From NCBI GenBank assembly GCA_016928495.1, contig JAFGKQ010000221.1:1-6881 (forward strand): DNA of 6,881 nucleotides, read 5' to 3'. The translations under genes and the position numbers were made by a program. Each line of letters starts with the position of its first letter. The first letter of the stretch is position 1. This document shows positions 1,270-6,698 of this stretch, piece after piece. Under the pieces are notes generated by a model that did no database searches, was not told where the DNA came from, and saw only the letters and a list, made by a program, of their open reading frames with translations. The DNA comes from Candidatus Fermentibacterales bacterium (GTDB taxonomy: Bacteria; Fermentibacterota; Fermentibacteria; Fermentibacterales; JAFGKQ01).

Positions 1270-1452
1270 TGGTCATACTCATCCTGTTATGCAACAATGC
1301 TATAAGTCTCCGGAAGGGCCTGGCTGCTCCCCCCGCTCCCCTCGAATCGATGCCCGGGGTCGCCGGGAAACCCCCGATGGCACTCCCAGCAGCCCGTTAC
1401 TGGGCCTATGTTTGAGGGTCGCGCGGAAAGGCATCAGCCCTGGGGGAGCTGG
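1270..1452. other. Divergent intergenic spacer between rRNA promoter and sensory operon
   Basis: This roughly 180-bp non-coding stretch lies between the divergent rRNA P1 promoter and the sensory protein start. Seen in it are an extended -10 candidate on the plus strand (1298-1306), small GC-rich inverted repeats (CCCGG/CCGGG at 1353-1367; CCCAG/CTGGG at 1385-1404) and the ribosome site GGGGGAG at 1442-1448. The inverted repeats would lie in the 5' untranslated region of the sensory gene. I see no conserved riboswitch core. Confidence 0.5.
1298..1306 (+). promoter_or_regulatory. Candidate extended -10 promoter for the sensory operon
   Basis: The sequence TGCTATAAG fits an extended -10 (TGnTATAAT with one mismatch). 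No good -35 is present at 16-18 nt upstream, which is common for extended -10 promoters. Transcription would start near 1313 and give an untranslated leader of about 140 nt. It sits about 30 bp from the divergent rRNA P1 -35, so the two polymerases might interfere. Confidence 0.35.
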
Positions 1453-4242
1453 ATGACCAGAGAGGTGTTCCTGAACCTGTTCGTCAGCGATGAGCAGGTC
1501 GTCAAGATCGAGTCGACCAGTCAGGTGACCTTCGACGACCTGATCGGCCTGTCTCCCCCGGAGCTCCTCCATCCCGTGCCCTCCGGCGAGAGCTACGAGC
1601 TGGTGAGGTTCACGCCCGGCGAGGACACGGAGGTCATAGCCGCTGCCAGGTTCAACCCGGAGAGCAACGGGTACCTCGTCTACTACCTCGAGGGGGCGCC
1701 GCTCACGCTGAGCCCCTCGGCAGCCGTTCTCGGTCTGAGATCCTCGCGGCCGATGCCCATCGTTTCGCCCGGCATGGTCGCGCTGCTCGGCTACACGCCA
1801 TGGGAGCTGGGTGAGAGCGACGCCCTGCATCTTCTCACGAGCGAGTCGCCCGGCAAAGTTCACTCCTGCACTCTGATAGACAGGTCGGGAGGTGCCAGAG
1901 ACCTCCTCTTCATGCCCGTGTCGGCGCTGGCTGACGGGGTTGACATAGTCGTGATACCGGCTCCCAGGCGTGACGACATGGACGTCTCGATGTCTCTTCA
2001 GCGCTGGGGGAGCAGACCCGTGGAGGGCCCCGAGGAGGAGCTCGATCTCCTGCTTCGCGAAATGGACCTGAGCCAGGGCGCTCTGCTCCGGACAACGAGG
2101 CACGGCTTCAGGATATGGGCGACCCGGGGGCTCGACATCTCTCAGGAAGACCTCGATCCCGGCGGCTTCCTGGAGGGCTGTCTCGACCAGGGCCAGGTCT
2201 GGCTCGACATGGACGGCGGCAGCACTGCGGCAGCTTCCAGCGGCAACATGCTGGTTCAGCCCTTTGGCTGGCGATCGGCCTATGTCCTCCTGCTGGTCAC
2301 CTCCGGCAACATCAGGAGGGTCGAGCTTCAGGCCCCTGCCTTCTGCACCTTCCTCTCGATGCGGCTGGAGCTGTGGAACAGCGTGGAGTCCCATGCCGAG
2401 CTCCAGGACAGGAAGGTCCTCCTCATAGACGCGGAGCAGCTACTGATAGACGGAGGCATAAGCATCTTCGACGAGCTGGGCGACTTCCTGGGCAGGATGG
2501 CCGAGACCATTGGCGCGGATCTGCTAGCCGTAGTCAGGGCTCGGGACGGCATGCAGATCGTCTCCTGCGGGGGAGCGATAGCTCACGAGCCGGCCGACGA
2601 GCTTCTCTCCAGGCTTTCGGGGCCGGCCGGTGATGGCGTGGCAGTCGAGTCGGCACCGATAATGAAGGACCTTGTCCTCTACGCAGCATACAGGGAAGGC
2701 AAGTCCTCTTTCCGCGGAATAGTCGACTCCCTCGCGCGGCTGCTCGCGAGGCTCTGCTCGGACGGCCGCCCCGGCCCTCCTGAGGAGCCCCTGCTCTCGA
2801 GACTGCCCATGGTCGTGGTCTCTCGCGACTTTTCGGTGGAATGGGTCGGCGGAACCGAGAAGCTCGCCAAGTGCTACCACTACAACGGGTTGGACGAGCC
2901 TTGCGCCGACTGCCCTCTTCTCGGGGAGCCCACCGGACCCGACAGCGAGCCATCCTCGGTCCTGCTCGAGAGAGAGGATGGCATCGAGATAGTGGCTCCC
3001 TCTCAGGAGCGCTCGATCGTCCTCTGGGCCAGGTGCAGGCTGCCGGCGGACTCGCCCGGAAGGCAGCCTGGACACCCGGAGGAGGCCGACCGTCCACCCA
3101 CGGCGCCCGCAAGGGACACGGCCGGGCTTCGCCAACCGGGGTCTTCCTCCTACTCGCAGGACGGAAGGGTCATCGAGTGGCGCTCCTGGATGGAGGGGGC
3201 GACCGGCATACCAGCCGAGCAGGCCGTGGGACAGGATGCCGCAAGGCTACTGGAGCGCCTCTCATCGATCCACGTCGAGCGCCAGCTCGAGCTCGCCATG
3301 GAGAAAGGCGTCTCTCTTGAAGAGGGGGTCGACTTCGTGCTCAGGGGAGAGCGGTACAACAGCGCCATGAGCATCTCCCCCGATACCGGCGAGATATCTC
3401 ACCTCGTCCTGCCCGCCGGCATGAGTCCTCAGTCGGCTTCTCCGGCGTGGATGCAGCTACCGGGCCCGGGCGTGGCCGGAGCATCGAGAGAGCCGCTCCA
3501 CCTGGCCTCGGTGATCGCAGAGGCCTGCGAGAAAGCTGGCTGGGAATTCGACCTTTCCCCGGAGGCGTCTTCGAGCGGGGCTCCGGTCTGGCTGACACAA
3601 CCCGCTGCCGTGCAACTCGTCGCTGCCCTCTTCGATCTGCTCGGAGAGATCAGCCCCACCAGATGGATGGGGGTAGATGCGGTGGTTGTGGAGCATTCTT
3701 CCGTACATGGCCCGGCCGCCATTCTGCCCGGCTCCTACCACGTCATGGAGTTCAGGGTGGGTCCTGCCCTGTTGCCCGCACAGAAGCAGCTCATCTCGGA
3801 CCTTGACTCGGAGATGGCGGCACTGGGCGGCTGGGCCCGGAGGAGCGAGGACAGAGAGAGCCTGGTGGTCTCGGTTCCCGCGGCCATCCCATGGAAGGGC
3901 CGCTCTGACAGTGCCCTCGTCTACTCGCCCGGTGACGCTCGCTTTGCTGCTCAGTGCTGCGACGTCCTGGAGCGCACCTGCGGCCATGTGCAGTGCGCCG
4001 AGGACCCGACCGGGCTCGCCGGCGGGCAGGAGAAGGCGGGCATCCTGGTCATCCGGGCATCGGAGTCGGCGGCAAGGCTGATCAGCGCCCTCTGCGTGAG
4101 GATCCCGACGCAGCCTCTCCTCCTGGCCAGCGGCGTCCGCCTGAGGACGACACTGTCGCTCTCACCGAACCGAAGGCACCTCAGGCTGCCGGCATCCGAC
4201 GAGGAGCTGATGATGATGGCAAGGAGGCTTCTTCGTGCTTAG
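1453..4242 (+). CDS. PAS/GAF multidomain sensory protein, degenerate hybrid histidine kinase
   Basis: This 929-residue protein has no membrane segment and is probably cytoplasmic. Domains judged by eye: PAS about 97-170; GAF-like about 190-310 and 330-435; PAS about 447-530 with C474, C484 and C487 (C-x9-C-x2-C-P); a Pro-rich linker about 530-565; PAS about 565-653; an HATPase-like fold about 680-812; a receiver-like fold about 820-928. No phospho-acceptor His helix pair lies between the last PAS and the ATPase fold. In the ATPase fold the N-box reads DLLGEI where NLLxNA is expected, and no DxGxG is seen. In the receiver fold the acidic pair is replaced by YSPG, the phospho-Asp strand reads ILVIRAS, and the conserved Lys is replaced in LRLP. 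Family knowledge says such losses abolish phosphotransfer, so I infer a non-catalytic signalling scaffold. The start at 1453 is chosen for GGGGGAG 4 nt upstream; an in-frame ATG at 1408 lacks a ribosome site. The stop overlaps the next gene by 8 nt. Confidence 0.85.
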   Translation: MTREVFLNLFVSDEQVVKIESTSQVTFDDLIGLSPPELLHPVPSGESYELVRFTPGEDTEVIAAARFNPESNGYLVYYLEGAPLTLSPSAAVLGLRSSRPMPIVSPGMVALLGYTPWELGESDALHLLTSESPGKVHSCTLIDRSGGARDLLFMPVSALADGVDIVVIPAPRRDDMDVSMSLQRWGSRPVEGPEEELDLLLREMDLSQGALLRTTRHGFRIWATRGLDISQEDLDPGGFLEGCLDQGQVWLDMDGGSTAAASSGNMLVQPFGWRSAYVLLLVTSGNIRRVELQAPAFCTFLSMRLELWNSVESHAELQDRKVLLIDAEQLLIDGGISIFDELGDFLGRMAETIGADLLAVVRARDGMQIVSCGGAIAHEPADELLSRLSGPAGDGVAVESAPIMKDLVLYAAYREGKSSFRGIVDSLARLLARLCSDGRPGPPEEPLLSRLPMVVVSRDFSVEWVGGTEKLAKCYHYNGLDEPCADCPLLGEPTGPDSEPSSVLLEREDGIEIVAPSQERSIVLWARCRLPADSPGRQPGHPEEADRPPTAPARDTAGLRQPGSSSYSQDGRVIEWRSWMEGATGIPAEQAVGQDAARLLERLSSIHVERQLELAMEKGVSLEEGVDFVLRGERYNSAMSISPDTGEISHLVLPAGMSPQSASPAWMQLPGPGVAGASREPLHLASVIAEACEKAGWEFDLSPEASSSGAPVWLTQPAAVQLVAALFDLLGEISPTRWMGVDAVVVEHSSVHGPAAILPGSYHVMEFRVGPALLPAQKQLISDLDSEMAALGGWARRSEDRESLVVSVPAAIPWKGRSDSALVYSPGDARFAAQCCDVLERTCGHVQCAEDPTGLAGGQEKAGILVIRASESAARLISALCVRIPTQPLLLASGVRLRTTLSLSPNRRHLRLPASDEELMMMARRLLRA

Positions 4243-4744
4243 CCCTATCCTTCCTCTTCTGCTGGTCTCATCCCTGGCGCAGGTGCGCATCGCGGTCACA
4301 CCGGAGGAGTTCCTCGCTCAACTCGCGGACAGCAGCTCGGGCGCGCATGGCGCGAGGTTCTGGGTCAACCGGTTCTCGCCCCGCTCCGATCAGCCTGCGC
4401 CGGGTTTCGACGAGATGATCGAGCTGCTCGCGGACCGCCGGGATCTCAGCGTTTCTCCCGGGCGGGCGGCTCTGGTTGAAGCGGATTCGATCTCGCCCTA
4501 CTACCGCGTGGCCTTCGAGTCCTCCGAGTGGACCTGGGTGGACGCCGAGGGCAGGCTCAGCAGGAGCCGGGGATGCACGATCGTGGACTTCATCGACGGG
4601 AGGTTCTACTGGGTTAGCATCCCGATGGTCCCGATCGAGTTCTCGAAGGCCAACCAGGCACAGGTAGCCTTCGTTCTGACCGTGATGGTCATCGGCGGGG
4701 CCTTCGTGGTCATCCTCTTCTTCCGCCGAATGCTGCTCAGATAA
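4235..4744 (+). CDS. Small single-pass membrane protein coupled to the sensory gene
   Basis: This 169-residue protein is of unrecognised family. It starts at GTG 4235, 7 nt after a perfect AAGGAGG (4221-4227), and overlaps the upstream stop by 8 nt, so translation is probably coupled. Residues 1-16 look like a short signal peptide (MLSPILPLLLVSSLAQ) without a clear charged N-region. Residues 20-140 form a soluble, mixed-charge, aromatic-rich region (for example EWTWVDAEGR, GRFYWVSIP). Residues 143-163 are a strong membrane segment followed by RRMLLR, so the expected topology is outside body, inside tail. By context it may be the membrane anchor or input partner of the cytoplasmic sensory protein; that is inference. 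It could equally be an unrelated envelope protein. The gene ends 2 bp before the inverted-repeat element. Confidence 0.8.
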   Translation: MLSPILPLLLVSSLAQVRIAVTPEEFLAQLADSSSGAHGARFWVNRFSPRSDQPAPGFDEMIELLADRRDLSVSPGRAALVEADSISPYYRVAFESSEWTWVDAEGRLSRSRGCTIVDFIDGRFYWVSIPMVPIEFSKANQAQVAFVLTVMVIGGAFVVILFFRRMLLR

Positions 4745-4746
4745 CG

Positions 4747-4892
4747 GGGACGTAGTTAAAGGAACTTAAGAAACTTGTCACTCTAAGGCTCCCAATATCG
4801 ATTAATCTGCCAAACACACCTAGCTAGATTAACTATTCGCACTCCACATCTGATAATTGGACAAGTTTCTTAAGTTTCTTTAACTACGTCCC
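4747..4892. mobile_element. 146-bp AT-rich element with 33-bp terminal inverted repeats (MITE/REP-like)
   Basis: The left arm (4747-4779) and right arm (4860-4892) are reverse complements over 33 bp with a single mismatch (G4762 against T4877), which remains a G-U pair in plus-strand RNA. Arms begin GGGACGTAGTTAAAG and end AACTTGTC. The 80-bp core (4780-4859) is AT-rich and carries a smaller inverted repeat, TTAATCT 4802-4808 with AGATTAA 4826-4832, and the palindrome CTAGCTAG (4820-4827). No frame of useful length is present and no target duplication is obvious; GGCTCCC occurs both in the core (4788) and after the right end (4894), probably by chance. The AT-rich composition contrasts with the GC-rich genes on both sides. 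A non-autonomous mobile element is the best reading. A pair of terminators is the alternative, but no T-run follows either arm. Confidence 0.7.
4762..4778. repeat. Tandem 9-mer AAGAAACTT in left arm
   Basis: The left arm carries a 9-bp tandem repeat, AAGGAACTT followed by AAGAAACTT. In the right arm (reverse strand, 4880-4863 region) both copies are the perfect AAGAAACTT. Each unit is itself a small palindrome (AAG-AAA-CTT) around its AAA centre, and the junction forms CTTAAG. Such short iterated units could be binding sites for a transposase or host protein; that is inference. Confidence 0.5.
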
Positions 4893-4903
4893 TGGCTCCC
4901 CGG

Positions 4904-5167
4904 CTAGAAGCCTTCCCACTCGGAAGAGAAGTCGAGGATCTCGTAGGGTCTGTCCCTGAGGCTGTCCTCGATGGAGACGGCAGTATCTATCAGGTCGCTC
5001 AGGTCCCTCTCGAGGAGGATGATCCTGGCGATCAGGGCCTGGAGGTCCTCAAGAGCCGCGGTATCGTTGAGGAAGTCGGGCTCCTCGCCGTTCAGGTCGG
5101 AGTGTATGTCCTTCACCACTGCGGCAAAGGCCGAAGCCATCTCGCTTGCGCGTCTATAGCGACTCAT
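4904..5167 (-). CDS. Small acidic helical protein, unknown function
   Basis: This 87-residue protein is of unrecognised family. A longer frame exists upstream, but the ATG at 5167 has an excellent ribosome site, GGAGGAG (5178-5172), 4 nt before it, and it overlaps the upstream gene's stop by 14 nt. That arrangement supports this start and translational coupling. The N-terminus is basic (MSRYRR), the rest is acidic. Residues about 36-72 form a likely amphipathic helix rich in Leu/Ile with Asp/Glu between them (LEDLQALIARIILLERDLSD), which could make a coiled coil or helix bundle. There is no signal peptide or membrane segment. It is co-transcribed with the PAP2-hydrolase gene and may be its cytoplasmic partner; there is no direct evidence. 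The stop lies 11 bp from the inverted-repeat element. Confidence 0.75.
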   Translation of the reverse strand: MSRYRRASEMASAFAAVVKDIHSDLNGEEPDFLNDTAALEDLQALIARIILLERDLSDLIDTAVSIEDSLRDRPYEILDFSSEWEGF

Positions 5168-6638
5168 CGGTCTCCTCCGCGGCGAGTGTCCATGACCTGC
5201 TAACATCGCTGACCTCCCCCGAGGCGTCAACGAGCACGGGCCGCTCGATCCCCCCCGAGTCGATGATCCGCAGGCACTCCGAGAGGGCACACCTCTGCTG
5301 GGCATCCGGCTCCCGTCCGTATCGCCAGGCTGGATGCCCGGCTCCCGCCATGATCACGAGACCCGCGCAGGGGCAACAGGCGGCCAGCTCTGAGAGCTCC
5401 TCCAGCGGGACGAGCCTGTCCCGTTCGCCAGCCAGATAGGCCACCCGGCAGCTCAGGCCGGCAAGAGGCGCGTAGCTGGCCGGCTCGAGACCGGCCAGCT
5501 CCCTCCGGGCGCGAACGGGAATCGAGGCCATCAGGAGGCGGGACCGGACATCTCCGATCCTGCGACGGGCTGCGCCGACGAAGGAAACCGGAGGAGCATG
5601 GGCGATGAGGCCGCGGCAGAGCGGGCCTGCCAGGCCTGCGGCCCGCAGGGCTATGGAGGCGCCGAGCGAGTAGCCGTAGACTACCGTCGAATCCGGCTCG
5701 AGCCCTTCCTTCCACGCCGCTTCCAGGGCAGCTATCAGATCGTAGGTCTCCTCCGCTCCCCCGGAGAAGCGGCTCGCGGGATGCCACGGGTGCCCCCGAA
5801 GCGGCAATCCAAGCACGCTGCACCCCAGCCTCTGGAAAAAGGCTGCCACCGGCGAGGCCATGAAGCAGGTTGCGCCCAGGCCATGAACGATGACCGCCAG
5901 ACCGGGCCCGGTGCCATCGAGCAGGAAGGCGTCGAACCCGCATCCGTCGACGGAGCTGACGGGCAGGCGTCGCCAGCCGTCTCCCGGGATCTCGCGCGAT
6001 GGGCGTGAGCCGTGCCTGAACGGCGCCGTGACCTCGAGCATCTCCGGGCCCCTGATCCTGCGTCGAAGCAACGCCCAGAAGAGCAGACCGTTGCCCGCAC
6101 CCAGCACCCAGCCGGCCAGCACGTCGAACGGGTAGTGAACCCCGACATAGGCCCTGCTGTATCCCACGAGGAAGGAGATTCCCACAGCTATCCAACCGGC
6201 GGGCGCGCTCAGGGAGAGGGCGAGCACTGTCGCCAGCGCGGCGGAGTTCGCGGCGTGCGAGGACGGGAATGACCTGTTGCCGTGAACGGTGTGCCTGACT
6301 TCGATGAGCTCCGAGACCTCCGGGTCCCTGCCGGGGCGCTGCCTGCCCACAGCATGCTTGATCGCGCTGCTGGCAAAGTCGGAGAGCGAGACCGCCAGGA
6401 CCACGGCAAGGAGCACGAAGCGGCCGTTGGCCCCGCGTCTGAGCCGGAAGAGGGAGGAGAGAAGCCTGCCTTCGGTCCTTCCCCACCACGCCAGGTAGAT
6501 GCCCAGCAGGAGGAACACCGGAATCCAGTTGGAGACGTTGGTGATGAAGCGCAGAACGGGTCCGAGCAGGCCGGGGTCGAACCGCTGGTTGACGACCAGC
6601 AGCAGGTTCAGATCCAGGCGGGAGATCGCCTCGAACAT
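5154..6638 (-). CDS. PAP2-family membrane phosphatase fused to alpha/beta hydrolase
   Basis: This 494-residue two-domain protein starts at ATG 6638, preceded by GGAGG 4 nt away. A GTG at 6659 lacks a ribosome site. The N-terminal half (about 1-195) is a multi-pass PAP2 phosphatase with all three signature motifs: KHAVGRQRP (K94, R101-P102), PSSH (H128) and SRAYVGVHYPFD (R162, H168, D172). This family dephosphorylates lipid phosphates such as phosphatidate or undecaprenyl pyrophosphate on the outer face of the membrane. After the last membrane segment (about 172-193), residues 240-450 form an alpha/beta hydrolase: VHGLG oxyanion region (252-253), nucleophile elbow GYSLG (S324), Asp in AGERDRLVP (D407) and His in GAGHPAW (H435). 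If the topology is typical, the hydrolase is cytoplasmic. The tail after about 455 is variable. Both catalytic sets look intact. The natural substrate is unknown; a lipid remodelling role is inferred. Confidence 0.92.
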   Translation of the reverse strand: MFEAISRLDLNLLLVVNQRFDPGLLGPVLRFITNVSNWIPVFLLLGIYLAWWGRTEGRLLSSLFRLRRGANGRFVLLAVVLAVSLSDFASSAIKHAVGRQRPGRDPEVSELIEVRHTVHGNRSFPSSHAANSAALATVLALSLSAPAGWIAVGISFLVGYSRAYVGVHYPFDVLAGWVLGAGNGLLFWALLRRRIRGPEMLEVTAPFRHGSRPSREIPGDGWRRLPVSSVDGCGFDAFLLDGTGPGLAVIVHGLGATCFMASPVAAFFQRLGCSVLGLPLRGHPWHPASRFSGGAEETYDLIAALEAAWKEGLEPDSTVVYGYSLGASIALRAAGLAGPLCRGLIAHAPPVSFVGAARRRIGDVRSRLLMASIPVRARRELAGLEPASYAPLAGLSCRVAYLAGERDRLVPLEELSELAACCPCAGLVIMAGAGHPAWRYGREPDAQQRCALSECLRIIDSGGIERPVLVDASGEVSDVSRSWTLAAEETDESL

Positions 6639-6698
6639 CACCCCTCCAGCTCTGAGCACTGCCGATGCGGCGGATGTGACGGGCCGGGTACAGCCCTG

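Follow-up and report, generated by a model that had tools for sequence, protein, structure and literature searches.

The window (6,881 nucleotides, the whole stretch of DNA analyzed here) carries a four-gene block, A-B/C-D, spanning positions 1408-6659 (A, 944 aa; B, 169 aa; C, 87 aa; D, 501 aa). A domain search identified D as PAP2 plus hydrolase and gave no family match for A, B, or C at the thresholds used. A minus-strand 16S rRNA gene at 1-977 is truncated where the contig begins (match to Rfam SSU_rRNA_bacteria over positions 1-948 of 1533). An inverted-repeat element lies between the convergent genes B and C, and the features of this junction are as follows.

4235-4744, plus strand: flanking gene B of 169 aa, without a family match; stop codon TAA at 4742-4744; ends 1 nt before the element start at 4746
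4745-4903, unstranded: gap between the two genes, 159 nt, of which 12 nt are left once the element is removed; nine relatives have -8 to +18 nt here
4746-4779, plus strand: left terminal repeat GGGGACGTAGTTAAAGGAACTTAAGAAACTTGTC, from the inverted repeat, copy search, and end alignment
4780-4859, unstranded: core of 80 nt, unlike the cores of other copies or the transposase copy except for a subterminal TTA-like box
4860-4892, minus strand: right terminal repeat, inverted, from the inverted repeat, copy search, and end alignment
4904-5167, minus strand: flanking gene C of 87 aa, convergent with B, without a family match; stop codon at 4904-4906; conserved in nine relatives

Structure of the element and its empty site

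In the window sequence the arms at 4747-4779 and 4860-4892 are 33 nt each and 97% complementary, with one mismatch and 80 nt between them, and they lie 2 and 11 nt from the two stop codons. These values, and an abrupt shift in base composition (39% G+C in the element vs 64% in the fetched loci of the same genome), bear out what had been claimed in the sequence-only reading. Alignment with the other copies moved the left end to 4746 (GGGG), giving an element of 147 bp. Among 16 aligned ends, conservation extends over ∼40 nt, with 32 nearly invariant positions followed by C34 and a TTA-like box at 38-40; similarity stops beyond this point. The predicted fold of the element reached -63.2 kcal/mol, vs -25.4 (sd 3.3) for shuffled sequences (z = -11.6), and none of 200 shuffles was as low.

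The order and orientation of the four genes are kept in nine relatives of the same order, and none of these has the element at this position. The stop-to-stop gap between B and C in these relatives is -7, 18, -8, 13, 9, 7, 8, -4, and 8 nt, compared with 159 nt in the window; removal of the 147-bp element from the window gap leaves 12 nt. We concluded from this comparison of sequences that the B/C junction of the nine relatives is the empty site for the element. The relatives are distant (about 27-44% protein identity, none from the same genus or family), so the insertion cannot be dated. A second empty site was sought at copy C28a, where the left gene has only distant homologues and the right gene has none, which precluded a syntenic comparison.

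Dispersed copies and their locations

The genome that contains the window, a fragmented and 81% complete assembly of 2,307,464 bases in 337 contigs, was searched with a 150-nt element query. The 51 local matches form inverted pairs and solo arms, and the exact sequence GGGACGTAGTT occurs at 32 sites. The proposed dispersal of the arms was thus found. Six short doublets were recognized, C316 (the window copy), two on C28, and one each on C138, C125, and C133, with total lengths of 147, 162, 148, 148, 149, and 206 bp (four of the six within 147-149 bp). There are also two long doublets, C225 (1,261 bp) and C49 (1,370 bp), and GGGG points outward in every doublet of the family. A single copy conserved at its site, which had been named as the pattern that would point away from mobility, is contradicted on both counts, by the many copies and by the absence from relatives. 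Between the arms of C49 (L133:1649-3018) lies a 219-aa gene that matches no family, and a transposase is absent; this long copy may represent either a pair of solo arms or a copy carrying cargo. An abutting direct repeat (target duplication) was found in none of the eight paired copies. Lack of target duplication is expected for Y1 HuH enzymes, unlike most DDE elements.

The arms are nearly identical from copy to copy although the cores are unrelated: the six short-copy cores showed no similarity above shuffles to one another or to the transposase copy. Derivation of the core by internal deletion of the transposase copy was therefore rejected, and the usual MITE origin was not seen. Homogenization, arm exchange, or fast core change could possibly account for identical arms around unrelated cores. 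In REPINs, too, the ends are conserved, and the length and hairpin of the spacer appear to be important (Bertels and Rainey, 2011; PMC3116915). Across six copies, unrelated cores with mostly constant total lengths are suggestive of the same REPIN-like combination. The near-identity of the arms, the unrelated cores, and the presence of solo arms would also suit a domesticated repeat whose arms were spread or homogenized by gene conversion or by arm-by-arm transposition, the doublet itself not moving as a unit. We consider this unlikely, as a whole doublet stands opposite a clean empty site, the clustering of four lengths looks as though the pair were one unit, and the spacers of REPINs vary in the same way (PMC3116915).

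Two further searches concerned the distribution of the arm outside this genome. The exact 31-nt arm had no match in viral contigs, and an exact 16-mer contig scan was uninformative, since the matches returned were close to chance expectation and came mostly from one conserved Prochlorococcus stretch; its Fermentibacteria match (L093) was a lone coding match. On the right flank of three copies (window 4886-4905, L128 after 1628, and L129 after 1738), TCCCCGGCTA lies no more than 20 nt from the element, which could reflect chance, gene ends, or a preferred target.

The expectation that such elements land in convergent gaps agreed with their commonest location: by a rough codon-usage gene call, 6/8 paired copies lie in convergent gaps, which has a probability of 0.001-0.011 at an assumed background of 20-30%. 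At C225 an arm provides the end of the neighbouring gene, and within 24 nt the family-consensus arm closes each of the three inward reading frames with a stop codon. Insertions may persist mostly in tight convergent gaps, as no gene or promoter would be broken there, and the stops of the arm itself may also help them survive. The gene next to C28a (L128:1467-1628) has a homologue in another genome (G002), and a doublet of that genome's own end type (L178:820-1030) adjoins the homologue at its 3′ end; unrelated end types therefore occupy the same gene end in the two genomes.

The strong hairpin, its position between two stop codons, and the frequency of convergent gaps would all suit a local terminator or mRNA 3′-end stabilizer that is not mobile. 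We regard this as very unlikely given the nine relatives without the element at the homologous site and the many copies elsewhere in the genome; a search for an intrinsic terminator found no terminator-like stem with a T run. It had also been proposed that the sole arm mismatch, a G-U pair in plus-strand RNA, keeps the hairpin in transcripts. The mismatch is indeed a plus-strand G-U. Whichever transition occurs in one arm, one strand will have G-U and the other A-C, so this carries no weight. In copy C125 none of the four arm mismatches is G-U on the plus strand as read; these changes do not preserve plus-strand pairing, and selection for an RNA hairpin is therefore not supported. A secondary effect of the element on transcripts is possible.

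Transposases and their terminal repeats

A transposase with the same ends had been put forward as support for mobility, with Y1 and DDE enzymes as examples, and the one found is of the Y1 type. The long copy at C225 (L132:1050-2310, 1,261 bp) has identical 32-nt arms (L132:1050-1081 and 2279-2310) that enclose a 359-aa transposase gene. The protein scored above the cut-off of Pfam Y1_Tnp and matched the NCBIfam REP-associated tyrosine transposase profile at E 2e-14, below the cut-off of that profile. Its HuH motif and tyrosine are intact, and H74, H76, and Y133 are present in 33/33 homologues. A profile scan of the C225 protein gave weak helix-turn-helix matches near residues 302-343. At E <= 1, 11 of 13 homologues scanned matched Bac_DnaA_C (best 3.9e-6), and the transposase family profile matched the DnaA structures 2hcb and 1l8q at 6e-7; the single C225 transposase gave no direct match in PDB. 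A better-matching transposase could be missing because of the fragmented, incomplete assembly.

The same genome has a second Y1 gene, C90 (L165:1682-2404, minus strand; 240-248 aa), with ends TTATGGGGACACATCACTTATCTC; no match to a DnaA-type domain was found in its product. Ends of the C90 type occur at 36 sites in their own genome (control, 0) and form outward-facing doublets. Most C90-family copies have TTAT or a TAA/TAG-like variant directly outside GGGG.

Transposase homologues were found in 27 of 42 genomes searched, and nearly all full-length homologues examined sit between their own inverted repeats, mostly starting GGGG[AT]CG. For 33 transposases, arm similarity correlated with protein identity (Mantel r 0.767, permutation p 0.0001). 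Because the arms were hand-picked and are of unequal lengths, this value of r is approximate. Mean arm similarity was 0.94 for transposases in different genomes at >= 60% identity, and 0.54 for transposases within one genome vs 0.52 for unrelated ones. These sequence comparisons indicate that terminal-repeat similarity tracks the transposase, not the genome. Own end types are dispersed in 16 of the 42 genomes, all of one genus (g2), and other end types are dispersed in G002.

Terminal inverted repeats flanking a short gene-less core are also what a MITE of a DDE-type insertion sequence would have. That origin is extremely improbable here: target-site duplication is absent from all eight paired copies, the sole gene type found within the same ends and identified is a Y1 HuH transposase, with no DDE gene in the copies fetched, and throughout the order the type of end goes with the similarity of the Y1 transposases.

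We concluded that the element is very probably a non-autonomous insertion, a MITE/REPIN-like doublet of terminal repeats, which the C225 Y1 HuH transposase mobilizes, or once mobilized, in trans. This rests on the shared ends, the dispersed doublets, the empty site, and the lack of target duplication, together with the intact HuH motif and tyrosine of C225 and the finding that terminal repeats co-vary with transposases within the order; mobility is thus read from the distribution of copies. The small non-autonomous mobile element first proposed is in this way supported by its dispersed copies, by a Y1 transposase with the same ends, and by its absence from relatives.

Relation to TIRtrons and REPINs, and possible mechanism

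In the work of Di Nocera and co-workers, Y1 genes that lie between long terminal repeats are termed TIRYTs and reside in TIRtrons; many of these, a majority, carry a GGGGWSAS motif, which is thus not strictly defining, and the repeat families are often dimers (PMC3733652). The present system shares with them a Y1 tyrosine transposase gene within long terminal inverted repeats starting GGGG and moderately abundant dispersed repeat families with many dimers. It differs in that the end GGGGACGT fits GGGGWSAS in its first six bases only, the seventh being off, whereas the C90 family end GGGGACAC fits fully. We file the system on its sequence features as TIRtron-type (TIRYT/TIRtron), which it fits with one motif base off. 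The empty site and the co-variation of ends and transposase are additions to that description.

Most TIRYTs were placed in TnpA-Y1 subclass 2.1, whose members have a C-terminal Bac_DnaA_C or other helix-turn-helix (HTH_23, HTH_28) and are without canonical REPs (Quentin et al., 2018; PMC6006769). The homologues resemble this subclass in the HuH core, in the C-terminal match to a Bac_DnaA_C-type helix-turn-helix seen in most of those scanned, and in the absence of canonical REPs; the protein of the window genome differs in its weak helix-turn-helix matches, so that its assignment to the subclass is tentative. A canonical GTAG REP was rejected as the family definition, since the other ends of the order do not retain the GTAG that this arm has, and the arm does not qualify as a REP with a GT[AG]G foot, its own hairpin being weak.

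Likeness to REPIN/RAYT systems lies in the inverted doublets, in ends far better conserved than the spacer, in an apparently constrained spacer length, and in a single-strand hairpin and a dedicated Y1 transposase. However, the arms here are longer, copy number is low, no GTAG foot is conserved across the order, and the transposase gene itself lies between the same ends. These comparisons make the copy in the window a REPIN-like doublet of the non-autonomous kind.

For the mechanism, we infer that the arms would pair into a hairpin in single-stranded DNA, e.g., on the lagging strand; the transposase would recognize the ends and cut via a 5′-phosphotyrosine link, and the element would join a new site without duplicating the target. 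A more tentative and somewhat doubtful extension is that TIRYT transposases would maintain REPIN-like populations, in which an end pair at a set spacing would be the unit that is replicated or homogenized. The arms would then remain identical from copy to copy, the core could vary in sequence though not in length, and the C-terminal DnaA-type domain would read the TTA-like box on the inner side of each arm.

The finding accounts, for annotation, for short AT-rich hairpins that this group has in convergent gaps. The name TIRYT dates from 2013 and appears in only two papers of the literature searched; the mobility of their repeats has so far been suggested. Recognition and mobility become directly testable in this order, which offers a clear empty site, tens of transposases that each have a particular end type, and a correspondence between ends and transposase.
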